In this document: positions 38,616 through 59,533 of the stretch, one piece after another | How the letters are laid out: each line of letters opens with the position of its first letter | How positions within the stretch are numbered: the first letter of the stretch is position 1 | DNA from: Mycolicibacterium sp. | Lineage (GTDB): Bacteria > Actinomycetota > Actinomycetes > Mycobacteriales > Mycobacteriaceae | Length of the DNA: 64,000 nucleotides | Assembly: GCA_020637165.1 (NCBI GenBank) | Contig: JACJWN010000007.1 | Location: forward strand, 39,611 to 103,610 | Direction of reading: 5' to 3' | The notes under the pieces: generated by a model | The model's input: only the letters and a program-made list of their open reading frames with translations | The model's database searches: none | Told to the model about the DNA's origin: nothing | Translations under genes and position numbers: made by a program

Positions 38616-38869
38616 GCGTCAGCGGTCCTCGGGGGATTTGGCTTGTCTCCGCTGTTTCGGGGCGTCGGTAGGCTCGGCGGCGCTTGCCTCGACCCCGAGC
38701 GCCGCTTGTGACACAGTGGCGACCGTGTGGGGACGGTAAGGTGCGGAGGTGTCCGGAAATCGTGAGGTGTCATTCGGCTGAACTGGACTGGTTCTCTGGG
38801 GCCGCCCACTAGTCCCAACGTGAATATAGTTTCTGAACCTGTGTTCCCCCAGAATTGAGGTCTCCGACG

Positions 38870-40306
38870 GTGAAGCTGAAAAATGCGCGCATCAGAGCCA
38901 CCGCGAGTATTGATGATGCTTTCCGTCAGCTGAATTCGAACGGCTTAGGCATCCTGTTTGTTGAAGATGCCCGTTCGCGAACCATCGGCTGTGTGACGGA
39001 CGGTGACATCCGGCGCCAATTACTGCGGAATGGCGATCTGAGCGTTCCGTTGTCTACTTTTATGAATACGAAGTTCGTCTGGGCACTTGCCGGCACACCC
39101 CGCGAACGGATCCTCAAGCTTCTCGACCACCGAGTGCATTTCGTTCCCATTCTTGATGCCGAACGTCATCTGGTTGACGTCTGTAGTCGTGACGACTTCG
39201 CCGTCGATTCGGAGTCTGAGGTTTTTGCCCGCGGCCGTGCACCTGCGCGAATCACATTCGGCGGCGGCGGAACAGACCTCACCCACTTTTTCGTCGATCA
39301 GGGTGGAATGGTTATCAACGCAACGATCAATAAGTACGCCCATGCGATGCTGCGTAAACGTGCGGACTCCTCGGTCAGGATCTACTCTCACGACCTACGG
39401 AAAACGGTGGAGGCGGCATCGCCCGCGGACCTAGAACTTGATGGAGCCCTCGATCTCCTTGTCTCCGTCGTTAGGCTAGTTCAGCCTTCCTTTGGATTCG
39501 AGATGGAAGTTGCTACGGACTTTCCCGTCGGATCAGGTCTCGGTGGATCGGCGTCGGTCGCCGCGGCTGTGATTGGTTGTTTCAACGAGTTCAGGTCGGA
39601 CCCATGGGATCGCCACCAAATCTCAGAAATGGCGTTCCAGGCAGAAAGGCTGATCCTGAATATCCCTGGCGGCTGGCAAGATCAGTATGCAACAGTCTTC
39701 GGTGGTTTCAACTTCATGGAATTTACTGCCGATCAAAATATGATCTTCCCACTGCGACTCGACCAGAAGGCGACCGCCGAGCTTGAGGAAGCTCTCGTGC
39801 TCTGCTATACCGGGCGTAGCCACGACTCTGGAGTGATTCACCGTAATCAGCGCGCGAGGTCATCAGCTCACGAATCTAAGACGGCGGATAGCGGCAGGAG
39901 GAAGAAAGAACTGACCCTTGACATGAAGCGCAAGTTGCTGAGAGGAGATGTCTACGGATACGGGAAGCTGTTGCACAAAGCTTGGCTGTTGAAGAGGCAC
40001 GACAGCCCCATGACTACGGACAAAGAGCTCGATCAGATCTACACGTGTGCAGTGTCGAACGGAGCACTAGGAGGCAAAATCCTAGGGGCTGGCGGTGGCG
40101 GATACTTCCTATTTTTCGTGCCGCCGTTTCAGCAGTACAGAGTTGTTGATGCACTCTCGCAGCAAGGTTATAGGTGTGAGCGCGTCATGTTCGACGAGCA
40201 CGGATTGAATTCGTGGCGAACTCGGATCGAAGACCTTGCGGAATCGACTGACCATTCGGTGGAGCTAGCCGGGGATCACTCTTGCACGCAAGGAGTCTCG
40301 CCGTGA
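38870..40306 (+). CDS. CBS-domain / GHMP sugar kinase fusion (HddA-like)
   Basis: This protein of about 478 residues starts with two CBS motifs (about 1-118; GILFVEDARSRTIGCVTDGDIRR, then FVPILDAERHLVDVCSRDD). A GHMP kinase follows: PARITFGGGGTDLTHFF near 127-143, the ATP loop PVGSGLGGSASVAAAV near 215-230, and GKILGAGGGGYFLFF near 400. The kinase half resembles heptose-7-phosphate kinase HddA. The CBS pair probably senses a nucleotide or sugar nucleotide; both sense and substrate are inferred. The GTG at 38870 is nine bases after GAGG; TTG at 38855 is possible. The GC content is visibly lower than in the ribosomal genes. The stop overlaps the next start. Confidence 0.82.
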   Translation: MKLKNARIRATASIDDAFRQLNSNGLGILFVEDARSRTIGCVTDGDIRRQLLRNGDLSVPLSTFMNTKFVWALAGTPRERILKLLDHRVHFVPILDAERHLVDVCSRDDFAVDSESEVFARGRAPARITFGGGGTDLTHFFVDQGGMVINATINKYAHAMLRKRADSSVRIYSHDLRKTVEAASPADLELDGALDLLVSVVRLVQPSFGFEMEVATDFPVGSGLGGSASVAAAVIGCFNEFRSDPWDRHQISEMAFQAERLILNIPGGWQDQYATVFGGFNFMEFTADQNMIFPLRLDQKATAELEEALVLCYTGRSHDSGVIHRNQRARSSAHESKTADSGRRKKELTLDMKRKLLRGDVYGYGKLLHKAWLLKRHDSPMTTDKELDQIYTCAVSNGALGGKILGAGGGGYFLFFVPPFQQYRVVDALSQQGYRCERVMFDEHGLNSWRTRIEDLAESTDHSVELAGDHSCTQGVSP

Positions 40307-42237
40307 CACATAAAAATCCCCCCGTCGTCAGTAGGAAGATGCGTATCGGCGGCCGCGATATTGGACCGTCGGAGCCGTGTTTCGTCATTGCAGAGATCGG
40401 AAACAACCACAATGGGGATTTCGACCGAGCCGTTGCGCTTGTAGACGCTGCGATCGCTAGTCAAGCGGACTGCGTCAAGTTCCAGATGCGGAAACTTGAC
40501 GAAGTCTATCGAAGCACCAGCCTTGCCGGCGGCGAGGATGACTTATCTGTCGAGTACACAATCGATCTGCTGCGGCGGTTCGAACTGCTTCCGGATGATC
40601 ATCGTCGACTGAAGGACTATTGCAGCAATCGGGGCATCGCGTACTTATGCACGCCTTGGGACATCAGCAGCGTGCGGGTCCTCGACTCATTCGGTGTAGA
40701 GGGATACAAGGTTGCGTCTGCCGATCTCACCAACCTGCCGCTGCTCGCGGCCATGGTGGACACGGGGAAACCGTTCATCGTGTCCACTGGAATGTCCCGC
40801 ATGGAGGAGATTCGGACGGTCGTCGAGTTTCTTCACTCGAGGCAGGCGAATTTCGCTCTCCTGCATTGCCAGAGTACTTACCCCGCCGCGTTCCACAATG
40901 TCAATCTGCGTTTTATGGAGACCCTGAAGGAGCTCCACCCCTTCTTCGGATACTCCGGTCACGAGCGCGGGATCTCGGTCACGATTGCTGCGGTTGCCCT
41001 CGGAGCTCAGATTGTGGAGCGACACATCACCCTTGATCGGACGATGGAAGGTCCAGACCACGCTGCAAGCCTTGAGCGGAGTGAATTTGCGGCACTGGTG
41101 GCAGGCATACGCGAAACCGAGGCTGCACTGGGAGTGTCGAGCGTTAATGGCGAACGCCCACTGAGCCAGGGAGAGTTGATCAACCGCGAGAATTTGGCAA
41201 AGAGTCTAGTGGCCAGTCGCGACATCGCCACCGGCATTGTGATAACGGAAGCGGACGTCATCGTGCGCAGTCCGGGGCAGGGTTTGTCGCCGATCCACCT
41301 ACCTGAACTTTTGGGGCGTCGCATCAGTCGATCGATGAAGATGGACGACTACTTCTTCCCTTCGGATCTCCAAAACGATGCTGCGAGGCCCCGAGCTTAC
41401 TCGTTCCGTCGTCCTTGGGGTGTACCGGTGCGATTTCACGATGCGCTCGACTTCATGAGGCGCAGCGAACCGGACATCGTTGAGTTCCACCTCAGCTACC
41501 AAGATATGGAGCGCGACTTATCCACCTACTTCTCCGGCACGTACGAGGCCGGATTTGTCGTCCATGCGCCTGAATTGTTTTCAGGAAGTCGACTAATGGA
41601 TCTGGCTTCTGCTGACGAAGAATACCGGGAATTCTCGATACGCGAGACGCAGAAAGTTATCGAAATAACGCGGGCACTCAAACGATACTTTCCTAACACC
41701 GAGCAGCCACTGATTGTGCTAAATATTGGTGGGATTTCGACTCACGAGATTCTGCCGGAATCGGCAAAGCCCAAGCTCTATGACACATTCGCCCGTAGCC
41801 TCGAGGAGCTCGATGCCGAGGGGGTCGAGCTAACCCCCCAAACCATGGCGCCATTCCCCTGGCACTTTGGCGGTCAGCGTCATCAGAATTTGTTTATCTA
41901 CCCGGAAGAATCTGCACGCGTATGCCGGGAATTGGGCCTGCGCATGACCGTTGATGTTTCGCACACCAGGCTGGCGTCGAATCACCTGAACTTCGACTTC
42001 TATTCGGGAATCGCGACTCTTGGTCCCTACACTGCCCACTATCATCTTGGCGATGCCAAGGGCGTTGACGGAGAAGGCCTGCAGATAGGCGAGGGGGATA
42101 TCGACTTCGCATTGCTCGGAAGAACGATGGCGATGCATGCCCCCGCCGCGAGTTTCATTCCGGAAATCTGGCAGGGGCACAAGAACTTCGGTGAGGGCTT
42201 CTGGATTGCGCTCGCGCGTTTAGAGACGTTCCTGTGA
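40303..42237 (+). CDS. NeuB-type synthase fused to a sugar-phosphate-isomerase TIM barrel
   Basis: This 644-residue protein combines a NeuB domain (about 10-280; FVIAEIGNNHNGD, VKFQMRK, STGMSRMEEI, and GYSGHERGISVTIAAVALGA) with an SAF-type antifreeze-like domain (about 285-340; RSPGQGLSPIHLPELLGRRI). A C-terminal xylose-isomerase-like TIM barrel (about 355-640) follows, with FHLSYQDMERD, VVHAPELF, VDVSHTRLASNH and HYHLGDAKGVDGEGLQIGEG. NeuB enzymes condense phosphoenolpyruvate with a hexosamine to form nine-carbon nonulosonic acids. The GTG at 40303 forms a GTGA overlap with the kinase stop. The fusion partner's role is inferred as isomerase or epimerase. Low GC suggests transfer. Confidence 0.85.
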   Translation: MTHKNPPVVSRKMRIGGRDIGPSEPCFVIAEIGNNHNGDFDRAVALVDAAIASQADCVKFQMRKLDEVYRSTSLAGGEDDLSVEYTIDLLRRFELLPDDHRRLKDYCSNRGIAYLCTPWDISSVRVLDSFGVEGYKVASADLTNLPLLAAMVDTGKPFIVSTGMSRMEEIRTVVEFLHSRQANFALLHCQSTYPAAFHNVNLRFMETLKELHPFFGYSGHERGISVTIAAVALGAQIVERHITLDRTMEGPDHAASLERSEFAALVAGIRETEAALGVSSVNGERPLSQGELINRENLAKSLVASRDIATGIVITEADVIVRSPGQGLSPIHLPELLGRRISRSMKMDDYFFPSDLQNDAARPRAYSFRRPWGVPVRFHDALDFMRRSEPDIVEFHLSYQDMERDLSTYFSGTYEAGFVVHAPELFSGSRLMDLASADEEYREFSIRETQKVIEITRALKRYFPNTEQPLIVLNIGGISTHEILPESAKPKLYDTFARSLEELDAEGVELTPQTMAPFPWHFGGQRHQNLFIYPEESARVCRELGLRMTVDVSHTRLASNHLNFDFYSGIATLGPYTAHYHLGDAKGVDGEGLQIGEGDIDFALLGRTMAMHAPAASFIPEIWQGHKNFGEGFWIALARLETFL

Positions 42238-42297
42238 ACGGCATCTTTACGAACAGTACCTACCCTCTTTGCAGTTGAAACAACGGGGAGAACCCTC

Positions 42298-43128
42298 ATG
42301 CCTCTTTCCAAGCTTCCCGTATTCGACTTGTCAGGGAGAAGCGCGCTCGTCACGGGGGGCGGTGGGATGCTGGGGCCGCAGCATGCGGCCGCACTCGCTG
42401 TGCTTGGCGCGCGGGTGTTTGTCGCTGACGTGGTCGAAGAGAGCGCCAAGGCGGCGGCTCAGAATGTTATCGCCGAGACTGGAAATGACGACGTGGTGGG
42501 TTGCTATTTGGACGTCACGAATGCGACGCAGATCCAAGATTTCAGCGCTAGGATCGGCCCCTTAGACATTCTTGTTAACAATGCTGCAATCGATGCAAAA
42601 GTTACGGCCACCCCGGGCGTGGCCAACGGAACGCGCCTAGAGGTACTTCCACTGGAGCAATGGCGCGTTGAAATTGATGTGGGCCTGACTGGGGCGATGC
42701 TCTGTTCTCGGACATTTGGAGCTTTGATGGCAGCTAGGGGCCGTGGCGTCATTCTTAACATTGCATCGGATCTTTCCGTGATTGCACCGGACCAACGTTT
42801 GTATCGCCGGCCTGATGTCCTGAGAGAAAGCCAGCAACCCGTCAAGCCTGTCACTTACTCCGTAATCAAACACGGGCTCATAGGCCTCACGAAGTACCTC
42901 GCAACCTACTGGGCGCACTGCGGTGTGCGGGCTAACGCCCTTTCTCCTGGCGGCGTTTTCAATGGTCAGGGGGATGACTTCACGCGGAGGCTTTCGGACC
43001 TCATTCCGATGGGGCGCATGGCGCAGGTGGACGAGTACCGTTCTGCCGTCCAGTTCTTGTGTTCTGATGCCTCCAGCTATATGAACGGTCAGAATATCGT
43101 TATGGATGGCGGTCGCAGCGTGCTTTGA
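42298..43128 (+). CDS. SDR oxidoreductase of the sugar cassette (PtmA-like)
   Basis: This 276-residue classical SDR has the cofactor motif TGGGGMLG, NNAAID, an IASDLS serine, and the active-site YSVIKHG in the order of the family. It starts 60 bases after the NeuB fusion and shares its low GC. Flagellar legionaminic-acid loci contain a similar oxidoreductase (PtmA) next to a CBS protein and a NeuB-type synthase, so a nonulosonate role is plausible but inferred. The ATG at 42298 is preceded by GGGGAGAACCCTC. The first IS remnant begins 49 bases after its stop. Confidence 0.85.
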   Translation: MPLSKLPVFDLSGRSALVTGGGGMLGPQHAAALAVLGARVFVADVVEESAKAAAQNVIAETGNDDVVGCYLDVTNATQIQDFSARIGPLDILVNNAAIDAKVTATPGVANGTRLEVLPLEQWRVEIDVGLTGAMLCSRTFGALMAARGRGVILNIASDLSVIAPDQRLYRRPDVLRESQQPVKPVTYSVIKHGLIGLTKYLATYWAHCGVRANALSPGGVFNGQGDDFTRRLSDLIPMGRMAQVDEYRSAVQFLCSDASSYMNGQNIVMDGGRSVL

Positions 43129-43176
43129 CACGAAGATTGGATGCTCAGATCGGGTGACCGGCGCCCCGCGTGTCAG

Positions 43177-43412
43177 ATAGGAGGATCCGGAACTACGCCC
43201 CGTCAGTATTCGCCGGAGTTTCGGCAGCGTGCGTCGCGGTCGTTGTATACCACGATGGAGGCTTCGGATACTTCCGAGTCTGAGGCTATTGACTAGGTGG
43301 CCAGCAAACTGGGTGTCTCGGAGGGGTCGGTGCCGTTGGCGGCGCAAGGACCAAGTCGGTGCCGGACAGCTCCCCGGCATGACCAGCGCTGACCTGAGTT
43401 TGTGAGGTGAGC
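43177..43412 (+). pseudogene. Left remnant of an IS3-type element (orfA part), outermost shell
   Basis: The sequence from ATAGGAGGATCCGG on is a degenerate copy of the orfA of the intact element at 62709-63026 (PRQYSPEF...ESSE...VASKLGVSE), with several stops and substitutions, and lacks the left end TGAACTACCCC. It stops where the next IS3 begins. The matching right end, CTAGGAACGAAACC to TAGTTCA, is at 52243-52284. The middle of the element is deleted, so no target duplication is seen. Confidence 0.82.
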
Positions 43413-43483
43413 TGACCTGTTCCCGCTTTCCCGGACACCGAGGTTGAGGCGATGATCGTCTCAACGGAAGGAGTCTGAGAAGT

Positions 43484-43771
43484 ATGCCTGCTGCTCACCC
43501 CGAGGAGTTCTGCCGCCGTGCGGTGGAGTTGGCCCGGCTGCGGGAGAAGCCGATCGCCCAGATCGCCAAGGACATCGGGATCAGCGAGTCCTGCCTTCGC
43601 CGCTGGATGGGCCAGGCCGACGTCGAGGAAGGCCACAAGGAGGGCCTGACCAAAGACGAGCGTGCCGAGCTGGTTCGGCTGCGCCGGGAGAAACGGGTCC
43701 TGGAGATGGAAGTGGAGATTCTCAAACGGGCCAGCGCCTATTTCGCCCGGGAGAATATCCTCCCAAAATAG
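43484..43771 (+). CDS. IS3 transposase OrfA
   Basis: This 95-residue helix-turn-helix protein (MPAAHPEEFCRRAVELARL, IGISESCLRRWMGQAD) ends with a leucine-zipper-like RLRREKRVLEMEVEILKRA. It binds the element ends. Its stop lies within CCCAAAATAG, where a -1 slip on the A run would fuse it to OrfB (CCC AAA ATA GCG), the usual IS3 arrangement. Confidence 0.88.
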   Translation: MPAAHPEEFCRRAVELARLREKPIAQIAKDIGISESCLRRWMGQADVEEGHKEGLTKDERAELVRLRREKRVLEMEVEILKRASAYFARENILPK

Positions 43772-44583
43772 CGTTCCGGCTGGTCCACGAGCTTGCCGCT
43801 GACGGGTTCCCCGTCGCGGTGGCCTGCCGGATCCTGAAGAAGGTGTCGACCTCGGGCTTCTACGAATGGCGCAGCCAGCCGGCCAGCGCCCGTGACCGCG
43901 ATGATGCGGAGTTGGCCAACACTATCGCCGCGATCCACACCGCATCCCGGCAGACCTACGGAGTGCGCCGTATCCATGCCGAGCTGCGCCACGGCCAGTG
44001 CCGCCGGGTCAGCCGCAAGCGGGTCTGGCGCTGCATGAAGCTCATCGGCCTGAAAGGGGTGCACCGACGCCGGTGGCGCCAGCCCAGGCCTGCGGCCGCC
44101 TCGTGGCCGGACCTGGTCCAACGCAAGTTCCGCGCCGAGGGCCCCGGACCGCTTATGGGTCACCGACATCACCCAACACCGCACCGGTGAGGGCTGGGGT
44201 GTACGCCGCGGTCGTCCTCGATGTGTTCTCCCGCCGAGTGGTGGGCTGGTCGATCGCCGATCATCTGCGTACCGACCTGGTCGCCGACGCCCTCGATATG
44301 GCCCGGCTGCGCCGCAAACCCGTTGGGACAGTAGTTCATTCGGACCGCGGCACGCAATACACCTCCTGGCTCTTCGGTCACCGGCTGCGCGAAGCCGGCC
44401 TGCTCGGGTCTATGGGCAAAGTGGCTTCGGCGTTTGATAACGCGATGATCGAATCGTTCTTCGGCTCGATGCAGATCGAACTGCTCGACCGCCGAATCTG
44501 GACCACCCGAGCCGAGCTGGCATCAGCGATCTTCGAGTACATCGAGGCCTTCTACAACCCAGTGCGCCGCCACAGCGCCCTGG
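43766..44583 (+). pseudogene. IS3 transposase OrfB, N-terminal part, frameshifted
   Basis: The frame reads FRLVHELAADGFPVAVACRIL..., the HTH_21 region and rve catalytic domain. Two single-G additions, near 44150 (CCCCGGACC) and 44195 (GGCTGGGGTG), break it; after correction it reads RLWVTDITQHRTGEGWVYAAVVLDVFSRR and continues to HSDRGTQYTSWLFG and the glutamate of NAMIESFFGSMQIELL. It ends in HSAL at the IS21 insertion, and the last 20 codons lie at 52140-52202. Confidence 0.82.
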
Positions 44584-44654
44584 TGATGGCGCTCACTGAA
44601 AATCCCCACTGACGCTCGCTGAAATTCCCCACCCGTGTGGCTCCGCCGAGAAGG

Positions 44655-44714
44655 GCGGGCCTCCTTCGATGCTTCTGGTGTCTGACGCCAGTTGCTTCGT
44701 TGAAGGAGGCCCGC
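44655..44714 (+). other. Long hairpin in the istA leader of IS21 element 1
   Basis: GCGGGCCTCCTTC (44655-44667) pairs perfectly with GAAGGAGGCCCGC (44702-44714), enclosing a loop that itself has a CTGG/CCAG stem. It ends six bases before the istA ATG at 44720. The right arm carries GAAGGAGG, so the start region's Shine-Dalgarno would be sequestered in the stem. Confidence 0.6.
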
Positions 44715-44719
44715 TTTCT

Positions 44720-44800
44720 CATGCTCACATGGGAGGACGATGTGGAACTACATGCCCTGCGCAAGCGGGGTTGGACGATCACGGCGATCGCCAACCACGC
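44720..44800 (+). pseudogene. IstA of IS21 element 1, first fragment
   Basis: This encodes MLTWEDDVELHALRKRGWTI TAIANHA in pattern, the DNA-binding N-terminus of IstA. It is cut by IS21 element 2 after ATCGCCAACCACGC. The reading frame resumes at 48783 with CACGCCAAGCTCGACCGT, rebuilding IANHAKLDRKTVRKYLAG. Confidence 0.85.
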
Positions 44801-44875
44801 TGTCAATGGCCAAGTTGATGTCCCCGCTGGTGGCCAGGTAAAAGTCGCCACCCTGTGCGGTAGTTCTGGGGTTCG

Positions 44876-45679
44876 TTAGGGGCGCTCCTTTCGGTGTTGG
44901 GCGTCTTTCATGCGGTAGGACTGGCCGTCGGTGATGACGACGGTGGCGTGGTGCAGGAGGCGGTCGAGGATGCTGACGGCGGTGGTCTGTTCGGGCAGGA
45001 ATCGGCCCCATTGTTCGAAGGGCCAGTGTGATCCGATCGCCAGGGATCGGCGTTCGTAGGCGCCGGCGACGAGGCGGAACAGTAGCTGGGTGCCGGTGTC
45101 GTCGAGCGGGGCGAAGCCGAGCTCGTCGAGGATGATCAGGTCGACCCGCAGCAGGGATTCGATGATCTTGCCGACGGTGTTGTCGGCCAGGCCGCGGTAG
45201 AGGCTTTCCACGAGGTCGGCGGCGGTGAAGTAGCGGACCTTGTGCCCGGCGTGGATCGCGGCGGTTCCCAGGGCGATCAGGGTGTGGGATTTACCGGTGC
45301 CGGCGGGTCCGATGATCGCCAGATTCTGTTGGGCGGGTATCCATTCCAAACTGGCCAGGTAGTCGAACACCTTGGGTGGGATGGAGGAGGCAGCGACGTC
45401 GAAGGACTCCAGGGTCTTGGCGACCGGGAACCCGGCGGCTTTGAGCCGGTTGACGACGTTGGAGGCGTCCCGGGCGGCGATTTCGGTTTCGACCAGGGTG
45501 CGCAGCACTTCCTCGGGGGTCCACCGCTGTGTCTTGGCGGTGAGCAGCACCTCGGGTGCGGTGCGGCGGATCGCCGCGAGTTTGAGCCGGCGCAGCCCGG
45601 TATCAAGGTCGGCTGCCAGTTCGGGAACCGACCGCGGTGCAACCACTTTGGCACCCTGGGAGGGGTTGGTGGTGGTCAT
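44876..45679 (-). CDS. istB: IS21 helper ATPase IstB
   Basis: This 267-residue AAA+ ATPase has Walker A IIGPAGTGKSHT near residue 122 and Walker B LIILDELGF near 182, with an IstB C-terminal domain ending TDGQSYRMKDAQHRKER. It works with IstA in IS21 transposition. The start overlaps the istA end as ATGA (istA stop at 45676-45678), the normal IS21 coupling. The gene looks intact. Confidence 0.92.
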   Translation of the reverse strand: MTTTNPSQGAKVVAPRSVPELAADLDTGLRRLKLAAIRRTAPEVLLTAKTQRWTPEEVLRTLVETEIAARDASNVVNRLKAAGFPVAKTLESFDVAASSIPPKVFDYLASLEWIPAQQNLAIIGPAGTGKSHTLIALGTAAIHAGHKVRYFTAADLVESLYRGLADNTVGKIIESLLRVDLIILDELGFAPLDDTGTQLLFRLVAGAYERRSLAIGSHWPFEQWGRFLPEQTTAVSILDRLLHHATVVITDGQSYRMKDAQHRKERP

Positions 45680-46844
45680 GAGATCACCTCCCCGTCGGCG
45701 ACTGGGCTGACCTTGTAGGCGTCCAGGGAACGGGTCGGCGCGATCGGCAGGTCCAGGACCAACGCCTGCCCGGCCGGGCGGGGCTGCGGTGTTCCGGTGC
45801 CGGCGGCCAGGATGGACCGCACGTCAGCGGCGCGGAAACGCCGAAACGCGACCGCTCGGTGCAGTGCGGCGATCAGGGCCGCCTCGCCGTGGGCGGCGCC
45901 CAGGGCCAGCAGGATCTCCAACTCCGATCCCAGCCGGGTGTTGCCGATCGCGGCGGCCCCGACCAGGAACGCCTCGGCGTCAGGCCCGAGGGCACAGAAC
46001 TGTTTCTCGACAGTGGTTTTCGGGCGTGGTCCGCGATCGGGTGCCGGGCGGGCACCGTTGTAATGATCGTCGAGGATCGAGGCGCTGCCCGGGGCGCCCA
46101 ACCGGTGTTCGGCCACCACCTCCCCGGTGGCCGACTCCAACAGGGCGACGGTGTCGTGATCGACCACCACGGTGACAGTGGCCCCGATCAGCCGGGTGGG
46201 TACCGAATAGCGGGCCGAGGCATATCGGACACAGGAGAGCCGGTCGACCTTGCGGGTCACTGGCGGTGGTCCGATCTGCAGGCGCAGCGAGGGCAGCGGC
46301 CGCAGCAGCTCGGCTTCGATGACCAGCCGCTCATCAGGGATCACGCAGATCTCCGAATGGACCGTGGCGTTGACCTCGGCACACCAGTCCCGTGCTGCGG
46401 CGTTGGCGGTGCCTAGATCCAGCGTGCGTCCGGTGATGGCGGCCTCGGTGAGCAGCGGGACGGCCAGGTCGCGTTGGGCGTAGCCACACAGGTTCTCCAC
46501 GATGCCCTTGGACTGCGGGTCCTCGGCGTGGCAGAAGTCCGGGGCGAACCCGTAATGGGCGGCCAGGCGCACGTAGTCCGCGGTGGGGACCACGACGCCT
46601 GCGACCACCCCGCCCTTGAGGCAGGCCATTCGGTCGGCCAGCACCCGGGCCGGCACGCCCCCGATCGCGGCGAAGGCTTCGGCGATCAACGCCAAAGTGG
46701 TGGATGCCCGCTGGTCAGTGGCGAAAGCCACGAACCGCCAGCGGGAGAACGCCAGCACCGCGCAGAACAGGAACAACCCCGGTGCGGCCTGGGCCCAGTC
46801 GATGACCAGATACTGCCCCGGTGACCACACCGCCGGGCGGCGGC
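45676..46844 (-). pseudogene. istA: IstA transposase of IS21 element 2, C-terminal part
   Basis: This part of the istA frame encodes VWSPGQYLVIDWAQAA with the first catalytic Asp, LADRMACLKGG, then HYGFAPDFCHAEDPQSKGIVENL with the catalytic Glu, and a C-terminal Mu-type domain. It is cut at 46844 by IS256. Joined to 48262-48666 with one GCGGCGGC copy removed, it gives one uninterrupted 521-residue protein. Confidence 0.88.
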
Positions 46845-48261
46845 GGTCACGTCCCGTGGCGTGGTGTAAGAGCGGTCGCGTGTTCGCGTGAGGCTCTGTG
46901 GTTGTCACTATGCCGTGAGAGCGGTTGTGGGGGCAACGGTTTCGCTGCTGGGGTCGCTGATCTGGAGTAGAGCGAGGCTGGTTTCGGACAGGTAGCGTTT
47001 GTCGGCGACTTGCCATTCGTCGTGGGCCTCGACCAGGACCGAGCCGGCCAGGCGTAGCAGGGCGGCGGGGTTGGGAAAGACCCCGACGACGTCGGTGCGG
47101 CGCTTGATTTCCTTGTTCAACCGCTCCAAGGGATTGGTCGACCAGATCTTCTTCCAATGCGGCACGGGGAAGTCGGCGAAGGCGGTGATGTCGGTGGCGG
47201 CCTCCCGCAGCATGGTTTCGACTTTGGGGAATTGCCGCCCGAGCATGCCGGCGATGGTGTCGAGTTGTTCCCCGGACGTGCTCGGCGTCGGTTGGGCGAA
47301 GATGGTGCGGATCGCCGCGGCCACCATTTCGCCGATCCCTTGGGGACCTGGGGCCAGCAGGTTGCGCAGGAAATGGACCCGGCATCGTTGCCACGAGGAT
47401 CCGATCAGCACGGCCTCGATGGCGGCCCGTAGCCCGGCGTGGGCGTCGGAGATGACCAGCTGGACTCCGGTTAGGCCGCGGGACTTCAGCGACCGCAGAA
47501 ACGCCGTCCAGAACGCCCCGTCCTCGCTGTCGCCGACGTCAAAGCCCAGCACCTCGCGGCGGCCGTCGGCGGCGACTCCGGTGGGCGATGACCACCGCCT
47601 GGGAGACCACGCGGTGGTTGACCCGGGCCTTGCAGTAGGTGGCATCGAGGAACACATAGGGGAAGCGCTGCTCACCCAGCGGCCGGTCGCGGAAGGCGGC
47701 GACCTCGGTGTCGAGGTCCCCGCAGATCCGGGACACCTCGCTCTTGGGAGATCCCGCTATCGGCGCCGAGGGCCTTGACCAGATCGTCGACCTTGCGGGT
47801 CGAGGTGCCATGCAGGTAGGGCTCCATCACCACCGCGAACAGGCACCGATCGACCTGGCGGCGCCGCTCGAGCAGCGCCACGGAAGAACGACCCGCTGCG
47901 CAGCGTGGGGGATCCGCAACCCAGGTCCCCGGCGACGGTGGACAAGGTGCGCGGCCGTGAGCCGTTGCGCTGATTGGTGCGGGTCTGGGTGCGCTCATGG
48001 GCGGCGGCGCCGATCTTGGCGGTCAGCTCGGCGTCGATCAGCGCTTGATAGACGACCTCGCAGGCTTGGGTGATCCGCTCACCGGCATCGGCGGTGCGCA
48101 GTGCATCGAGCACCTCCAACAAGGCAGACTGATCAAGGGCCATCGCGGTGTTCCTCTCGGTAGTGATTCTTGGTCGTTTCACCACAGAGACTCCCGCGAT
48201 GGCCCTCTCACATCACGACCGACACGCCGCCACTACTTACACCACACCCCGGGACATGAAC
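46845..48261 (-). mobile_element. IS256-family element, copy 1
   Basis: The ends GGTCACGTCCCGTGGCG (46845 on) and, inverted, GTTCATGTCCCGGGGTG (to 48261) match those of the copy at 60097-61510. Eight-base target duplications GCGGCGGC flank it at 46837-46844 and 48262-48269. It interrupts istA of IS21 element 2. About 420 bp at the left end are identical to the other copy, but the centre has many single-base indels. Confidence 0.9.
46908..48143 (-). pseudogene. IS256 transposase, frameshifted copy
   Basis: This is the same mutator-type transposase as at 60160-61392 but broken by several indels between about 47268 and 48139, for example GGTGGGCGATG for GGTGGCGATG near 47583 and CTCTTGGGAG for CTCTTGGAG near 47743. 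The reading frame is lost twice. Most changes are in homopolymer runs, so sequence error is possible. Confidence 0.85.
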
Positions 48262-48666
48262 GCGGCGGCCTCGGTGATGTTCCCGGCGCCACAACGCTTT
48301 CGCCTCGGCGACCAGGCGACGGAAGTTGCGATCCGACCCGGTGTATCCCGCGGCGCGGGCGATCGGCAACATCCGCTTGGCCGACATCCGGCCCTCGGAC
48401 TTGGCAACCCGCTCGGCGACCAGATCGGCCACCACGTCGTAGTTGTGTTCCCGCTCAGCTCGCACAGCCGGCGGATCCCCGGCCTGCTCGGCATGGAATT
48501 TCTCCATAACCCGCTTGACGGTCTTGTGGGTCGTGCTGCACACATCGGCGGCAGCTCGATACGACCCGAGTTCTTGATAGGCGGCAATGATGTCCATACG
48601 GTCCTTCGCAGACTTCAATGGAACTCCCCGGTGGTGGTGATGAATGGTTGGCACCTTCACCGTCAC
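48262..48666 (-). pseudogene. istA: IstA transposase of IS21 element 2, N-terminal part
   Basis: The frame begins at 48666 with MTVKVPTIHHHHRGVPLKS and includes the helix-turn-helix AAADVCSTTHKTVKRVMEKF, ending HHRGRR at the IS256 insertion. It continues at 46836 on the other side of IS256, giving HHRGRRPAVWSPGQ. The start codon is inferred. Confidence 0.82.
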
Positions 48667-48782
48667 CGCCGGGGCCCTCAGTTCCTGATCAACACGACGA
48701 ACACAGGGTGGGGACTTTCATCTGGCCAAAACTGGGGACCTCCACCTGGCCACCAGTGGGGACTTTGTCATGGCCACGGACA

Positions 48783-50082
48783 CACGCCAAGCTCGACCGT
48801 AAGACGGTCCGCAAGTATTTGGCCGGTGACGGCACGCCCGGGGTCCGGGCGCGGTCCGGACCGGATCCGTTTGAGCCGTTCGCCGACTACGTCACCGCCC
48901 GGTTGGTCGAGGACCCGCACCTGTGGGTCCGCACCCTGTTTGACGAGTTGGAGGACCTGGGGTTCGGACTGTCGTATCAGAGCCTGACCCGCATCATCCG
49001 GGAGCGGGGCCTGCGCCCGGTGTGCCACGCATGCCGGACCGCGACCGACCGGCCCAACGCGGTGATCGAACACACCCCTGGTGATGAAACCCAATGGGAC
49101 TGGCTGGAATTGCCGAATCCACCCACATCATGGGGGTGGGGCAAATCGGCCGATCTGTTGGTCGGCTCGCTGGCGCATTCGGGCAAGTGGCGGGCGGTGC
49201 TGTCGGCCTCCCAGGACCAGCCGCACCTGATCGCCGGGTTGGGTGCATCACCTCACCCTGGGCGGCGGTGCGAGCCGGGGGTGGCGGTTCGACCGGATGC
49301 TGGCCGCCGTGTGATCCGGCCTCCGGGAGGTCAGCGCCTCGTTCGCCGGGCAGGCCAAGCACTACGGGTGTCGGTCGCGATCACTGCTCCGCCCCGGCGC
49401 GGCAAACTGCAAGGGCGTGGTGGAGAAGGTCAACCACACCGCCGCCCAGCGGTGGTGGCGCATCCCTGGCCGATGAGCTGACCGTCGAGGAAACACAGGC
49501 CAGCCTGGACCGGTTCGCCTGCGCTGCGGGGACACCCGGTTACGGGCCACTGCCGACGCCGACGCTCACTCGGTCGCGGTGGTTGCCGCAGCCAGCCAAC
49601 CGCTGGCCACGGCACCGCCGCCGCACCCGGTGGTGATCCGCGAGGCCTGCACCGCGCCCCGGCAGGCGTTGGTGTCCTACCGCGGCAACTGGCCACTCGG
49701 TGCCCCCTGAAATTGGCCGGCGCGGCGGTGGTCGTCTCCCACCCGATCGGCGGGCAGGACGTCGATATCGCCACCGCCGTGGGCATCGTGATCGCCTGCC
49801 ACCGGCTGGCCGCCGACGGCCTGGGCGTCGCGGTGCGCGACAAAGGCCACGTCCTGGCGCTCACCACGCCGCAGCCATGGCCACCGCCACCAGCGGGCAC
49901 CCGCATCGGCGCACAGGAACGCATCCCACCGGGCCAGGCAGCCAAGGCCGCAGACACCAAAATCCTCGCCGCCCAGGCCGGCGAGACCGACAACATCCAA
50001 CCCCTCAACCAGCACAAGTTGGTCGATTCCACCTGTCATCGACCTGGCCGCCTACGAGCGGGCAGCCCAGAAAGGACCCTGA
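48783..50082 (+). pseudogene. IstA of IS21 element 1, second fragment, multiply frameshifted
   Basis: After the CACGC duplication the frame continues KLDRKTVRKYLAGDGTPGVR, then SYQSLTRIIRERGL and the catalytic DETQWDWLELP. From about 49240 on, single-base changes shift the frame several times (HLTLGGGASRG, GVVEKVNHTAAQRWW, RLRATADADAHSVAVVA). The end IDLAAYERAAQKGP stops at 50080-50082. It is inactive as read. Confidence 0.78.
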
Positions 50083-50935
50083 TCAGAAGCCAGCACACCC
50101 TGCACGGGCCAAGACCAGCCCCTGCACCCATCGACGACTCGCCCGCCACCGCGGCCCGGCGTCTATCAACAGCGCGCGCTCGCACCTGGCTGGAGCTCAA
50201 ACTCCACGACGCCGCCCAAGCGCTGCCCGCGGTCCTGGACCAGGCCAACGCCGAGGGCCTGTCGGTGCCGACCGCCTGCCCTGCAACGACTGCTGGCAGT
50301 CGAGGTCGACGCCTCCACCGCCCGCCGGCTCGCCATGGCGGGGCTGCGCCTCGCCTGCCGCGCCCTATTCCCGGCCACCTCGCCGACTTCGCCGTCGACG
50401 CGCCCGTGGGCATCGCACTGATCCCCGAGCCGATCTGGGCAGCTGCCGTCGAGACCGCCACCAACAGGCCTGCCCATCGGCCCACCGGTTCGCCGCGCAA
50501 AACCCACCCGGTCGGTGATCGGCCCGGCCGCCGCCCACGCCGGCTACCGCACCGCACCACTGCCGCCGACCTGGCAGCCCGCTGCCACCGCGCCGCGATC
50601 GAGGGCCACTGGGCCGCCGCCATACGCGGTGGTGATCCGCGGGCCGACCCTGCACGGTGCCGACGAGGCGGGCTACCTGCCACGCCCGCGAAGCCGCCTC
50701 AGCGCTGTTTCAGGTTGCCCCAACGGATTTGTTAAAAACCAGCGCGGCGGTGGTCCACTCAACCGATCGGCGTGGGGTCGTGGGGAGAAATATCGCCACC
50801 ACCCGCCGCCGGCATCGTGATCGCCTGCTACACCGGCTCGCGGCCTCGACCTGAGCGTCTACCGGCGCGCGACACGCCGCTGCGTCCTGCACCGAACCAA
50901 CGCCGGCAGCCACAACCGCCACCAGCAGAGCACCC
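50083..50935 (+). pseudogene. Degenerate istB, copy a
   Basis: Pieces of an IstB ATPase appear in changing frames: VYQQRARTWLELKLHDAAQ near 50160, LPAVLDQANAEGLSVPTA, TTAADLAARCHRAAIEGHW near 50560, and a Walker-B-like DEAGYLPRPREAASALFQV near 50660. The Walker A region is not intact. It belongs to IS21 element 1. A second, differently damaged istB follows at 51186-52078. Confidence 0.6.
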
Positions 50936-51185
50936 GCAGGCGAGGAATTTCATGAGCCACCGGGCCCGGCAGCCCGAACCGCATCACTGGACTACCGCAG
51001 CCCTCGCCGCCCGAGGCCTTCTCGCGACCACCAACACGGCCGCAACCCTCAACCAACACCAACCGTCCGGGAAAGCGGGATCGACCTGGCCAGGCCTACG
51101 CAGCCAACCTAGGAACGAAACCTGGGGCAAGTTCACCCCTGAGCCCGTCTTCACCAGCGCACACCCGCACTTACGGACCAGCCTT
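50936..51185 (+). repeat. Diverged extra copy of the IS21 right end plus IS3 tail
   Basis: GCGAGGAATTTCATGAGC, then CATCACTGGACTACCGCAGCC, CGTCCGGGAAAGCGGGA and TAGGAACGAAACCTGGGG occur here in the same order as at 52090-52284. Together with the flanking istB copies this makes the stretch 50157-51185 a diverged tandem duplicate of 51230-52330. Confidence 0.7.
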
Positions 51186-52078
51186 AGTGCACGCCATCGA
51201 CATCAGCGCCCGCAAACCGCGGCTCAGCGCCCTCTATCAACAGCTGCGCTCGCAAGTGGCCGAGCTCAAACTCACGACGCCACCCAGCATGCGGCCACCG
51301 GTCCGGAGGCAGGCCAGTAACCGAGGGGCACTGTCGTTGACCGCCGCCCTGCAACGAGCGGCCTGGCAGTCGAGGTCGTGATCCGGTGCCGAAGCCTACC
51401 GGAGGGCCGGGCAGCGCGCTGTTCGGCGGTGCCTGTAGCGGCAATGTCGATCCAGGCGCTCACGGCCATCTTGCCTCGCCGACTGGCGACGTTGACGCCG
51501 CCGTTGGCAAAACTCGATTTCCTGGTCGACGAAGCCTCCTGCAGCTGCCGCTACCGGTACGCCCGACGGCCACCAACACGTTGCCTCGTCGGCGACCGCA
51601 ACCAGCTGGGCCCTGGTCTCGGTCGGACAGCCCCAGTCGGCGCCGACGATCACCCCGGCGTGGGCACCCGGTCACCACCGCCGCCGACCCACCGCCCGCC
51701 GGAGTGCGGTCCTGCGCCGCGATCGGGGTGCTGGACCACCACCATGAATGCTTCGCCGAGCACCCGGCGCGAACAGCCATCGCGAACGGCGGCTTACCTG
51801 CCACTGCCCGGTGCAGATAGCCGATGTCAGCGGTCCAGACCAGGTTGTCTCCCAACGATATTTGAAAACCAGCATCGTCATCACCACCAACCGCGGCGTG
51901 GGGTCCTGGGGAGAAATCCTCGGCGACACCACCGTCGCCGCCGCCATGCTCGACCGCCTGCTACACCGCTCCATCGCGGTCAACCTCGACGGTGAGTCCT
52001 ACCGCCTCCGCGACCACCACGCCGCCGCGGAAACCCTGCACCGAACCACCACCGGCAACCGCCAACCGCTACGCTGAC
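51186..52078 (+). pseudogene. Degenerate istB, copy b
   Basis: The N-terminal part (LSALYQQLRSQVAELKL, near 51220) and an intact-looking C-terminus (LKTSIVITTNRGVGSWGEIL, LDRLLHRSIAVNLDG, ESYRLRDHHAAAETLHR) to a stop at 52076-52078 are clear. Between 51300 and 51850 the expected ATPase core is scrambled and no Walker A is readable. This copy adjoins the real right end of IS21 element 1. Confidence 0.65.
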
Positions 52079-52139
52079 AGAGCCCCGCAGGTGAGGAATT
52101 TCGATGAGCACACCTGGGGACTTTCAACGAACCTCATCA

Positions 52140-52202
52140 CTGGACTACCGCAGCCCCATCGACTACGAAAGACTTCACACGACCACCAACACGGCCGCGT
52201 GA
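52140..52202 (+). pseudogene. IS3 OrfB, last 20 codons
   Basis: After the CTGG duplication the OrfB frame finishes as DYRSPIDYERLHTTTNTAA followed by TGA (52200-52202). Joined to HSAL at 44583, it restores the usual IS3 C-terminal motif NPxRRHSALDYRSPIDYE. This is direct evidence that IS21 element 1 landed in this orfB. Confidence 0.88.
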
Positions 52203-52242
52203 ACACCCAACACCAGCCGTCCGGGAAAGCGGGAACAGGTCA

Positions 52243-52284
52243 GGCCCCTCGCAACCAACTAGGAACGAAACCTGGGGTAGTTCA
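52243..52284 (+). mobile_element. Right-end remnant of the outermost IS3-type element
   Basis: CTCGCAACCAACTAGGAACG and AAACCTGGGGTAGTTCA (ending at 52284) match the right end of the intact IS3 at 63931-63969. The partner left part is at 43177-43412. Confidence 0.85.
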
Positions 52285-52566
52285 CTCCCGAGCCCGTCTT
52301 CACGGTGCGCACGTAGGCCACCACCGCACACTACGGACCCCGCCTTAGTGCGCAAATCCCCACCATCAGCGCCGCAAACCCGCAGCTCACCGCCCCGCAA
52401 CCCGACAAGGGCCGCCCGAGTGACAAAAGTCAGGTACTACACCCAGCATGCGGCCACCAAGACGGAGGCACGCCAGTAACCGAGTGGGCATGAAAGCCGG
52501 GGCAGTTCAGGTGGACCGACTATCGGGGATCGCTCAGACCCCACCATCCGGATGAAGCCCGTCGCA
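52285..52566. other. Spacer between the IS stack and the beta-helix gene
   Basis: This gene-free sequence includes segments resembling 51135-51420 (for example ACCCAGCATGCGGCCACC and GCCAGTAACCGAG), so part of it belongs to the duplicated zone. No promoter or terminator is evident at the beta-helix gene's 3' end. Confidence 0.5.
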
Positions 52567-55449: not shown

Positions 55450-55818
55450 GCCCCCAATCTACCGATTGTAGACCCGCGAGCGGCTGCCGGTCGGTTGACG
55501 ATTTGGCGTCACTGTAAGGCCCGAGTCCAGTTGGGCACCGCCGACGCCAGTGTGGTCGGGGCAACAAGCCGGGCGCGTGCTGGATGACCCGGGCAAGCAA
55601 CCGCCTACCCAACGCCGCCCAGGCGATTCAAGGCGCCACTGAGGCTGATGCTCTTATCGGTGTTGCAGGTCAACCCGCCGCCTTTCATCGGCTGCGCCAG
55701 AGGTTTTTGACCTGCTCGGTTGCCCGCAACTAGTGTCGGCCCTTGCAGAAAGATTCCTAAAGAAGTTTTCATTAACGGAGAGCGGCCGGTTTCAGAGAGG
55801 GCACAGGGCTCAGGGTAG
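55450..55818. other. Divergent intergenic region (beta-helix / acyltransferase)
   Basis: This 369-bp stretch separates two divergently transcribed surface-glycan genes and should hold both promoters. AT-rich words occur at 55750-55780 (AAAGATTCCTAAAGAAGTTTTC). No clear -10/-35 pair, hairpin or mobile-element end was seen; short open frames have no recognisable motifs. Confidence 0.5.
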
Positions 55819-56438
55819 ATGATCGTCCAACACCAGCGACACGGGAGCGACAAGAACGCTATCCGTGGACATAGCCGTCCGGACCTTCAGGGAATGCGAG
55901 CGGTCGCCGTACTAGCGGTGTTCGCCGACCATTTGTTCGGCTGGCCATCAGGCGGATTCGTCGGCGTTGACATATTTTTCGTCCTTAGCGGTTTCTTCAT
56001 TACCGGGCTCCTGATCCGGGAGAGGACGGCTACAGGAACGATTTCCTTCCAAGACTTCTATGTCCGCCGCGTGAAGCGCATCCTCCCGTCCGCCGTGCTA
56101 GTACTCGTCGTAACCGTGATCCTCTCCTACCTGCTGTTGCCCGCAATCCGCGCTAGAAGCACTCTCCTCGACTCTCTGTACGCCGCTCTGTTTGTCGCCA
56201 ACTTCCGGTTCGAAGCCCTGGGGGCAGACTACTTCCAACAGGGGCAGCCGCCGTCACCTCTGCAGCATTACTGGTCATTGTCCATCGAAGAGCAGTTTTA
56301 TTTCGTGTGGCCCGCCTTGCTTGCGCTTCTGTTCATTCTCCCGAGGCGTGGCCATCGCCGCGGGAACACGCAGGCCCACCAAAAATGGTTGTTCGCCGCA
56401 ATGGCGACCGTCGTCTCTGCCTCTTTTGGTTGGGGACT
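55819..56438 (+). pseudogene. O-acyltransferase (OafA/YrhL type), N-terminal fragment
   Basis: The frame opens with MIVQHQRHG and shows the acyltransferase-3 start RPDLQGMRAVAVLAVFADHLFG, the VDIFFVLSGFFITGLL helix, FYVRRVKRILPS and LQHYWSLSIEEQFYFVWP. These are the catalytic-histidine and substrate-entry regions of the membrane domain. It is cut near 56438 by an IS3 element and continues at 57765. Confidence 0.88.
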
Positions 56439-56504
56439 TGACCCCATGTGTTGGACACGCTCAATCCCGGGATGTTCCTGGGGGAAGCGAGATGATTCAA
56501 CGCG

Positions 56505-56837
56505 ATGGCAAGGAAAAACTATCCAGACGAGTTCAAGCGTGACGCGGTCGCGCTGTACCAGGACACCGAGGGCGCGACGATCAAGGTGATCGCCGCTGAT
56601 CTCGGTGTCAGCGAGGCGACGCTGTCGGCGTGGTGCAAGACCGCCGGGGTGCCGATCCGGCACCGCAACCCCACCGCGGCAGCCCAGCTGGCCCACGGCG
56701 GCGAGACTGCAGAGCAGGAGCTGGCCCGGCTGCGAGCCGAGAACAAGGCGTTACGTGCCACCGAGGCTCGGTTGTCCACCGAGCGGGACATTCTGCGGTC
56801 GGCGGCGAAATATTTCGCCGGGGAGACGAACTGGTGA
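56505..56837 (+). CDS. IS3 transposase OrfA
   Basis: This 110-residue protein (MARKNYPDEFKRDAVALYQD, VSEATLSAWCKTAG) ends with a coiled-coil LARLRAENKALRATEARLS. It differs from the OrfA at 43484 and that at 62709, so this is a third type of IS3 in the window. Its TGA overlaps the GTG of orfB. Confidence 0.9.
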   Translation: MARKNYPDEFKRDAVALYQDTEGATIKVIAADLGVSEATLSAWCKTAGVPIRHRNPTAAAQLAHGGETAEQELARLRAENKALRATEARLSTERDILRSAAKYFAGETNW

Positions 56838-57733
56838 GCCGCTTCCAGTTCGTCGCCGACCACCTGCACGCCTTCGAGGTGAAGTGGCTGTGTGCGATCG
56901 TGGAGGTCGCACGGTCGTCGTTCTACGCATGGTTGGCCGGCGCTGAGGGCCGGGCGGCTCGTCAGGCCGCTGATGAGGCGTTGGCCGAGCGGATCCGCGT
57001 GGTGCACGACGAGGACAACACCTACGGGGCGCCGCGGATCACCGCCGAGCTCAACGACGGTGTGCCCGACGGTGAGCGGGTCAACCACAAGCGGGTGGCC
57101 CGGGTGATGCGCACCAACGGGATCGCCGGCTACCGGCGCCGCCGGCGGGTCACGACCACCACGCCGGATCCGGCAAACCAGAAGGTCCCCGACCTGCTCA
57201 AACGGGACTTCACCGCCACGCAGATCAACACCCGCTATGTCGGGGACATCACCTACCTGCCGTTGGCGACCGGCGGCAACCTGTACCTGGCCACGGTGAT
57301 CGACTGCTGCTCGCGGCGGGTGGCGGGGTGGGCGATCGCCGAGCACATGCGCGCCGACCTCGTCACCGACGCCCTGAAAGCCGCTGCCGGGTTGCGGGGC
57401 AGCCTGGCCGGTGCTGTGTTCCATGCCGATCACGGGAGCCAGTACACCTCAAAGGATTTCGCGAAACTCTGCGCCGATCTGGGGGTCACCCAATCCATGG
57501 GCGCAGTGGGGTCAAGTGCCGATAACGCCCTGGCGGAATCGTTCAACGCCGCCCTCAAACGCGAGATCTTGCAAGACCGGTCCTGCTGGCCGGACGCGGC
57601 GAGTTGCCGCCGCGAGGTGTTCCGATGGCTGGCCCGCTACAACACCAAACGACGGCACTCCCGATGCCGCCATTCCAGCCCCGCCACCCACGAAAGGAAC
57701 CTCACGACCGCTACGCTGCCCGAAGCCGCCTAA
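56834..57733 (+). CDS. IS3 transposase OrfB (DDE integrase)
   Basis: This 299-residue rve-domain transposase is intact: YVGDITYLPL (first Asp), FHADHGSQYTS (second Asp) and NALAESFNAALKREIL (Glu). The HTH_21 segment is RVVHDEDNTYGAPRI. GTG at 56834 overlaps the orfA stop (GTGA); the frame is open upstream, so an OrfAB fusion by -1 slippage is also possible. The element therefore looks competent. Confidence 0.9.
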   Translation: MSRFQFVADHLHAFEVKWLCAIVEVARSSFYAWLAGAEGRAARQAADEALAERIRVVHDEDNTYGAPRITAELNDGVPDGERVNHKRVARVMRTNGIAGYRRRRRVTTTTPDPANQKVPDLLKRDFTATQINTRYVGDITYLPLATGGNLYLATVIDCCSRRVAGWAIAEHMRADLVTDALKAAAGLRGSLAGAVFHADHGSQYTSKDFAKLCADLGVTQSMGAVGSSADNALAESFNAALKREILQDRSCWPDAASCRREVFRWLARYNTKRRHSRCRHSSPATHERNLTTATLPEAA

Positions 57734-57764
57734 CCACAAATCCCGTGTCCACTACATGGGGGCA

Positions 57765-59265: not shown

Positions 59266-59436
59266 CTGAACCTTGGTCCCAGAATCGGTCTTGACTGTGC
59301 CCACGCAGGCCACTGCAGCGGCTTTCGGACACCGATTCTCTGCGTCGCTATGTGCCCTCATGGGTCTGTCGCTCCGACTTGGGTCACTTTAGACATTTTC
59401 TGGGAGCTGCAGGTCGTTGAACTGCAGTGATATTGT
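59266..59436. other. Spacer between acyltransferase and IS3 stack
   Basis: Gene-free. CTTGGTCCCAGAATCGGTCTTG and following sequence show no end, terminator or open frame that could be assigned. Confidence 0.4.
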
Positions 59437-59533
59437 GAACTACCCCAGGTTTCGTTCCGATCCGTATAGGAGGATCAGGAACTATGCCCCGTCAGTATTC
59501 GCCGGAGTTCCGGCCTGAGTTAGGACATTTGGC

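Follow-up and report, generated by a model that had tools for sequence, protein, structure and literature searches.

The locus described here raises the question of what sugar is made by a NeuB-type synthase that carries a second TIM barrel, and how such a gene came to lie in a mycobacterium. It lies in a 64,000-nucleotide stretch of Mycolicibacterium sp. (the window), which spans positions 39611-103610 of C30, a contig of 330 kb. Three intact open reading frames (ORFs), all in the same direction, encode a CBS-domain kinase, a NeuB-SAF-TIM-barrel fusion and a short-chain dehydrogenase (SDR_A). A preliminary description of this DNA, made from the sequence alone, had assigned these domains to three coupled genes, and Pfam agrees. 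These genes may be the front of an acquired operon, broken by insertion sequences (IS), for a cytidine monophosphate (CMP)-activated 3-deoxy-2-ulosonic acid of a surface glycan, a reading to which we give about an even chance.

The fusion matches the Pfam models NeuB (PF03102, 271 bits, cut-off 22.1), SAF (39 bits, cut-off 21) and AP_endonuc_2 (68 bits), and the barrel domain alone scores 70.7 bits against PF01261 (cut-off 31.1). It reaches 319 bits against TIGR03569 (N-acetylneuraminate synthase, NeuB_NnaB) and 224.5 bits against TIGR03586 (PseI, pseudaminic acid synthase), which is under the equivalog cut-offs of 399.65 and 340.25, respectively. An AlphaFold2 model of the protein (pLDDT, the predicted local distance difference test, 89.6; pTM, the predicted template modelling score, 0.77) has meningococcal NeuB (4ipj/1xuu) as its top Foldseek match, with a score relative to the target, TM(target), of 0.87. 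UlaE, an L-xylulose-5-phosphate 3-epimerase (3cqj), is matched at 0.70, presumably through the C-terminal barrel, the output being without ranges.

Relatives were collected in one scan of genome contigs, which returned 347 sequences, possibly including NeuB proteins without the barrel. The best 80 of the 347 were kept, and these 80 loci come from at least 79 other genomes (L040 and L051 belong to one metagenome-assembled genome, MAG). A subset of 53 fusions, made up of 8 Bradyrhizobium ORFs, 44 others and the window protein, was aligned, with residues of the NeuB half numbered as in the meningococcal enzyme. Missing active-site residues, along with a lack of nonulosonic acid, had been named in the preliminary description as the sign that its proposal, a candidate nonulosonate or heptose pathway with a fused NeuB-isomerase at its centre, was wrong. 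Instead, 13 positions, the phosphoenolpyruvate (PEP) and metal residues among them, are identical in 53/53 fusions (E25, K53, Q55, T110, K129, S132, S154, Y186, S213, H215, E234, H236 and D247), and the proposal holds in this respect. K53, S132, E134, S154, H236, D247 and T285 are positions that we take to belong to the NeuB site.

Six other residues are replaced in every one of the 53 fusions, namely F112W, E134D, N184S, T285N, F288N and R314S; N74 is lost from all of them as well, in a stretch that is poorly conserved. In the excerpted text of PMC6795526, the residues lining the NeuB site are E25, Q55, N74, T110, F112, K129, N184, Y186, S213, H215, E234, F288 and R314, and Arg314 positions the N-acetyl group of N-acetylmannosamine (ManNAc), the R314A enzyme being inactive. 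Twelve non-fusion NeuB proteins served as controls, two of them mycobacterial and 10 encoded in the loci already collected. Nine of these span position 314, and 6 of the nine have Arg there; Trp occurs at 112 in none of the 12. Since N184, F288, T285 and E134 vary in ordinary synthases too, the fusions are distinguished by R314S and F112W only. Ser at 314 and Trp at 112 are also found in three distant relatives, one of which, L117, has Ser in place of T110. Two NeuB homologues without a barrel match occur in the same genus (G112:C7:68003-68905, L090, and G354:C119:28166-29104, L091; 33-35% identical); with Asn for D247 and Ile for Arg314, they are perhaps not nonulosonate synthases.

No PF02350 uridine diphosphate (UDP)-N-acetylglucosamine 2-epimerase was found in the genome, which is 94% complete; the same search matches in 11 of 14 control genomes. 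Unless the missing 6% contains one, the genome thus lacks the enzyme that usually provides a ManNAc-type acceptor. This absence and the lost Arg314 together speak for an acceptor free of N-acetyl, and the NeuB half would condense PEP with an aldose that lacks N-acetyl at C2. By family, the fused AP_endonuc_2 barrel is a metal-dependent isomerase or epimerase of ketoses and aldoses, and its most likely task is to provide this aldose within the one polypeptide. Its residues D558, H561, H588, D591, E598 and E628 are present in 53/53 fusions, and E516 in 52/53. A NeuB product has no C3 hydroxyl, so that 3-epimerase or aldose-ketose chemistry beside its keto group is impossible; on this chemical ground, the barrel more likely acts on the acceptor before condensation. 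The earlier suggestion that the barrel makes the NeuB substrate is thus plausible, at moderate confidence, from the missing 2-epimerase and from relatives reduced to the fusion and NeuA (see below).

The fusion is not confined to the present genome. All 80 loci match both halves of the protein (L037, from a sister mycobacterium, from residue 195 on, at a contig end). By title, 33 of them are Bradyrhizobium or Bradyrhizobiaceae, and the others are further Proteobacteria, Bacteroidota and several more phyla. The operon is found in Pseudomonadota, Bacteroidota, Chlorobiota, Nitrospirota, Cyanobacteriota and Actinomycetota. A CBS-HddA kinase (37-61% identity) lies just upstream in 73/73 loci with 2 kb of upstream DNA; the remaining 7 of 80 are not judgeable. 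Within 8 kb downstream, all 31 assessable Bradyrhizobium loci carry SDR_A, a second dehydrogenase (SDR_B), a stand-alone barrel protein (TIM) and the CMP-transferase NeuA, and of 28 other loci, 25 have SDR_A (at least 38% identity), 19 have SDR_B and 20 have TIM (at least 30% for either). Two further gene clusters recur near the fusion, one resembling nucleoside diphosphate (NDP)-sugar epimerases or dehydratases (31 of 82 sources, L005-L084) and one resembling DegT (22 of 82).

A CMP-transferase is present in 59/59 loci with 8 kb of downstream DNA, divergent or displaced in a few, and some of these matches may be part of a pathway next door. With limits of at least 30% identity and 4.5 kb from the fusion start, it is found in 31/31 Bradyrhizobium loci and 22/28 others. 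Of the remaining six, L064 has NeuA (48%) 5.4 kb on, L073 has NeuA (54%) 8 kb upstream, L077 has a match at 29%, and L047, L063 and L081 have a divergent SpsF-like protein (by Pfam for L047, by clustering for L063 and L081). The recurrent multi-phylum operon appears to make an activated ulosonic acid.

Distant relatives are simpler. In Ensifer canadensis (L096 11611-13965), NeuA is followed by a 784-residue CBS-NeuB-SAF-TIM protein, and no kinase was seen in the 26 kb read around it. The actinobacterial L116 (53% identity) has CBS-NeuB-TIM in one frame (~2349-4556), then NeuA and SDR_A, and L117, also actinobacterial (41%), has NeuA and NeuB-TIM on a contig that ends at the fusion. Neither a kinase nor GmhA was matched in the stretches read around these distant fusions. 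This means that the smallest set seen is the fusion and a CMP-transferase; in members of the main group, CBS and NeuB are separated by the kinase.

The cluster in the window had been described as lacking a typical CMP-transferase. None was found inside the window, but a PF02348 gene, labelled SpsF-type by eye, lies on the same contig, 29 kb past SDR_A, and relatives 75-81% identical to it stand within like operons in 7 of the 80 loci. SpsF proteins more than 60% identical to it occur in 7 loci, six of which also have a class IV aminotransferase (AT4), while the seventh, L053, ends at a contig edge; AT4 without such an SpsF occurs in four more. A NeuA of the kind seen in the sister mycobacterium did not turn up in the genome, in a search without a positive control, which makes the SpsF type the candidate CMP-transferase.

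Two further blocks of pathway genes lie past the window (Table 1), with transposase-like ORFs between them. In the intact operon of L072, a gammaproteobacterial MAG, the order is GmhB, NTP6, CBS-HddA, NeuB-TIM, GmhA, SpsF, methyltransferase, AT4, TIM, SDR_B and SDR_A, and counterparts of 10 of these 11 genes are present in the mycobacterial genome at identities from 34% (GmhB) to 78% (AT4). The genome has one NeuB and one HddA-like kinase. NTP6, an HddC-like nucleotidyltransferase, was not found in the cluster, its nearest match (106 bits) being on another contig. In the pathway proposed, the SpsF-type enzyme would activate the product with cytidine triphosphate. Tailoring, or the provision of variants, would fall to the dehydrogenases, the aminotransferase, the methyltransferase and the second barrel protein. 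The CBS domain is probably a nucleotide sensor, and GmhA, GmhB and the HddA-like kinase may feed a linked heptose branch.

Table 1. Genes and elements of the locus. Positions are those of the window, except where the prefix C30 marks contig positions.
Feature	Position	Strand	Basis or remark
CBS + GHMP kinase, HddA (heptose-7-phosphate 1-kinase) type, 483 amino acids (aa)	38855..40306	+	Pfam, PDB matches
NeuB-SAF-AP_endonuc_2 TIM-barrel fusion, ~644 aa	40303..42237	+	Pfam, AlphaFold2, Foldseek, catalytic residues
Classical short-chain dehydrogenase SDR_A, 276 aa	42298..43128	+	Pfam adh_short_C2, 132.9 bits
IS elements or remnants and a few other genes, parting the three window genes from the remaining pathway	43129..64000		Transposase domains (3 ORFs)
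Helix-turn-helix transposase ORF	43484-43771		Pfam; first transposase gene after SDR_A
IstB	44876-45679		Pfam
rve/Mu-transpos_C_2	45676-47394		Pfam
Methyltransferase, GmhA, GmhB	C30:103706-106060	+	
SDR_B, TIM, AT4, SpsF-type cytidylyltransferase	C30:109505-112887	-	
SpsF-type cytidylyltransferase (CTP_transf_3)	C30:112132-112887	-	PF02348, 68.2 bits
Glycosyltransferase and NDP-sugar epimerase/dehydratase genes	29223-32544	-	
Right-handed beta-helix protein, 960 aa	52567-55449	-	57% GC
Acyltransferase-3/SGNH gene, cut in two	55819-56589 and 57604-59265		Transposase-looking ORF (by eye) between

The ORF list places the start of the fusion gene at a TTG at 40282 (651 aa). The stop of the kinase gene overlaps a likely GTG start (GTGA), which makes the start in Table 1 the probable one; for the kinase gene, a GTG at 38870 is an alternative start. 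The 25 best NCBIfam matches shown for SDR_A, which the preliminary description called PtmA-like, are general models, all under their cut-offs.

The genes are of foreign origin. The kinase, fusion and SDR_A genes have GC contents of 55.0, 56.4 and 57.5%, against 64.9% for a ribosomal-protein pair at 36583-37838 (named rplK-rplA by eye), and the pathway genes past the window have 54-57% (methyltransferase 48%). In a tree built from 55 fusions, the mycobacterial proteins, two in number, are each other's neighbours (100/100) and fall with Bradyrhizobium and Devosia in a set of 11 rows (100/99). A 12-row set (98/85) adds a Kiloniellaceae MAG, and apart from the mycobacterial pair these sets are alphaproteobacterial; a closer mycobacterial grouping with Bradyrhizobium is not firm (96/71). 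The best reading of these data is that the pathway was acquired horizontally, its fusion being nearest to alphaproteobacterial ones. Among Mycobacteriaceae, 1 of 401 genomes has the fusion (the present one), two others match the NeuB half only and one the barrel only. Of 396 genomes sampled across the phylum, 45 have some match at E <= 1e-40, and 3 of these 45 have the fusion. Contamination was ruled out by the 330 kb contig with its ribosomal (by eye) and LpqN-type genes, by an assembly contamination of 0.17% and by a second Mycobacterium assembly with a fusion 84% identical over the part that its contig keeps. Phage cargo was rejected, with 0 relatives in viral contigs, and so was plasmid cargo; 89 plasmid records matched, and among the matches listed one (Ensifer) covers at least 80% of the query and the other 24 cover 45-57%.

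IS remnants had been reported to follow the genes at once, and transposase genes do begin shortly after SDR_A. Segments of 1.2-1.4 kb are repeated in and between the blocks, 98.7-100% identical between the window and L085/L086, the downstream stretches of the contig; other copies are 80-93% identical. One transposase-like segment of 1.4 kb occurs four times at 98.7-100% identity and in both orientations (window 46845-48261 and 60097-61510; L085 6089-7504; L086 10225-11639). Such near-identical segments between the blocks make recent IS activity the natural, probable cause of the dispersal.

An LpqN-type lipoprotein gene lies directly upstream of the kinase gene, with two ribosomal-protein genes (by eye) before it. 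Upstream glycosyltransferase and NDP-sugar genes (Table 1), together with downstream genes for a hexapeptide transferase, a PIG-L deacetylase, a UDP-sugar dehydrogenase, an FkbM methyltransferase and a weakly O-antigen-ligase-like membrane protein (L085 15610-18674, L086 16064-18448), look like a surface-polysaccharide region. The beta-helix gene belongs to the same island as the split acyltransferase gene.

The kinase bears on the possible role of heptose. It matches CBS at 38.2 bits and GHMP_kinases_N at 66 bits, scores about 246 bits (245.6-246.8) against the HddA model NF049969 (cut-off 600; 0/14 controls above it), and has PDB matches 4n3o, 4usk and 3k85 at E 1.2e-57 or better, the best solved relatives being HddA/WcbL heptokinases. 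The sites R13, D22, Q162 and D163 of WcbL are identical in 62/62 aligned family members. In the excerpted text of PMC4691232, WcbL lost its activity on mutation of each of these four and also when S118-S120 were all three changed; that serine run is G-S-A in the window kinase.

Several findings weigh against the production of a CMP-activated ulosonic acid from an acceptor without N-acetyl. Both acceptor and product are predicted from sequence, as are the chemistry, the order of steps and the continued working together of scattered genes, which lie in three blocks, on two strands, over ~34 kb. The barrel ligands E516, D558, H588 and E628 are putative, assigned by motif and by analogy with the family. 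Three of the nine controls covering the site also lack Arg314 (L041 has Ser, the two mycobacterial NeuB proteins Ile), and N184 is kept in 0/11, F288 in 0/10, T285 in 2/9 and E134 in 6/12, which makes these four weak evidence. A dedicated transferase was not identified; the genome has no match to TIGR04331, in a search that matched in no control either. The fusion and SDR_A are nearest to L037 and Bradyrhizobium by identity, while SpsF (75-81%) and AT4 (66-83%) are nearest to other Proteobacteria, AT4 to Bacteroidota too, and L037 carries NeuA, which makes the cluster a mosaic. The GmhA of this genome passes the NF010547 cut-off (352.5 against 320 bits), the operon-type GmhA of L069 falls under those of other GmhA models (176 against 276 and 175 against 209 bits), and GmhB shares no more than 34% identity with the L072 protein; GmhA and GmhB may therefore stem from a different heptose cluster. 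Lastly, in 32 of 46 loci outside Bradyrhizobium, GmhA is met within 3.6 kb downstream from where the fusion begins, and heptose may matter there.

This last observation also speaks for an acceptor heptose derived from the guanosine diphosphate (GDP)-heptose pathway, which would give a decaulosonate. GmhA starts 3 bases before the fusion ends in 11 of 30 pairs, the HddA-like kinase with its four conserved sites stands upstream in all 73 assessable loci, HddC-like NTP6 is present in 31 of 38 such loci, and Arg314 is lost. The HddA, GmhB and HddC steps, however, would give an NDP-heptose, which NeuB does not need, and the heptose genes are not constant. Some match to GmhA (TIGR00441) was found in 21 of 25 fusion genomes searched, 6 of them above the cut-off, and none in G403, G405, G406 and G419 (completeness not given); the genomes without a match are three operon-bearing Bradyrhizobium (6.0-8.7 Mb) and the small MAG G419. 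GmhA also had no match in five genomes, namely three repeats, G738 (98% complete) and G756 (77% complete). In the Mycobacterium nzgw95 genome, GmhA was matched only at 8e-4 and the kinase not at all, the fusion there being at a contig end. With neither gene near the distant fusions, heptose does not look necessary for the whole family, and a heptose acceptor throughout is improbable. Of the heptose half of the proposal, the linkage of GmhA, GmhB and an HddA-like kinase has held, but GmhA had no match in some of the genomes that carry the fusion. It is very improbable indeed that the genes serve heptose synthesis alone, with the NeuB-like protein in another role, for although the kinase, GmhA and GmhB are all present, the PEP/metal site is complete in all 53 fusions, a CMP-transferase accompanies every assessable locus, and distant fusions have no kinase beside them.

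An ordinary pathway to an N-acetylated nonulosonate of the N-acetylneuraminic (Neu5Ac), legionaminic or pseudaminic type, to which the barrel and the altered residues would be incidental, is unlikely. The NeuB_NnaB and PseI scores and the variable residues of ordinary relatives fit it, and some relatives adjoin PseB/PseC/PseF-looking genes (labelled from clustering and by eye); yet both equivalog cut-offs are missed, R314S and F112W are universal among the fusions, the genome has no PF02350 match, and in L041, L045 and L074 those neighbours surround a second, non-fusion NeuB. That the cluster in this genome is a decaying remnant making no ulosonate is a possibility, if a doubtful one, and it is compatible with the other readings. 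The spread over three blocks, with intervening IS copies of up to 100% identity, the lack of NTP6 and the split acyltransferase of the same island point that way, but all ten pathway ORFs are open and about as long as their relatives, and the three window genes still overlap or adjoin. A more specific version of the ulosonic acid proposal is quite unlikely as a whole. In it, members with GmhA would make a ten-carbon 3-deoxy-decaulosonate from heptose and minimal members a nine-carbon acid from a barrel-isomerised hexose, ketose phosphate and PEP being converted to an undescribed ulosonic acid in one polypeptide. Bradyrhizose, which has ten carbons, was considered in view of the many Bradyrhizobium matches and dropped, as no link to NeuB was seen. 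According to the excerpted text of PMC4743980, its genes were then not identified, and a deoxythymidine diphosphate-glucose 4,6-dehydratase cluster in photosynthetic strains was pointed to. The idea that PtmF is a barrel protein found no confirmation and was set aside, since PMC4481668 lists PtmF in a table as an oxidoreductase.

If the proposed synthesis of a CMP-activated ulosonic acid is correct, it would represent a new biosynthetic branch among sialic-acid-like sugars, with Ser for Arg314, Trp for Phe112 and a C-terminal barrel as its signature for annotation, and it would suggest that gene transfer can bring such sugars to the mycobacterial envelope. In one literature collection, searched by titles and abstracts, no NeuB-isomerase fusion and no such operon was described. 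The known systems share parts of it. NeuB/SiaC of Neisseria meningitidis (1xuu, 4ipj) has the same NeuB barrel, SAF domain and PEP/metal residues, and PseI of Campylobacter jejuni (8h2c; TM(target) 0.81-0.86) the same barrel and SAF, but unlike both, the fusions have Ser at 314, Trp at 112 and a second TIM barrel at the C-terminus. With the GDP-heptose pathway (GmhA, HddA/WcbL, GmhB, HddC), the locus shares GmhA, GmhB and an HddA-like kinase that keeps the four WcbL activity residues; in contrast to that pathway, this kinase has a CBS domain and the G-S-A run, the HddC match is weak and on another contig, and the operon holds NeuB and a CMP-transferase. The legionaminic pathways (Campylobacter ptm/leg and Bacillus subtilis sps) share a NeuB-type synthase and an SpsF-type (by eye) CTP_transf_3 protein, and spsF is needed for legionaminic acid transfer to the Bacillus subtilis spore surface, as given in the excerpted text of PMC7439481; unlike in those pathways, no PF02350 2-epimerase was found in this genome. 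A NeuB fused to a second sugar enzyme is also described for Leptospira (PMC3438082, in excerpt), where the partner is a phosphatase, whereas here it is an AP_endonuc_2 barrel.

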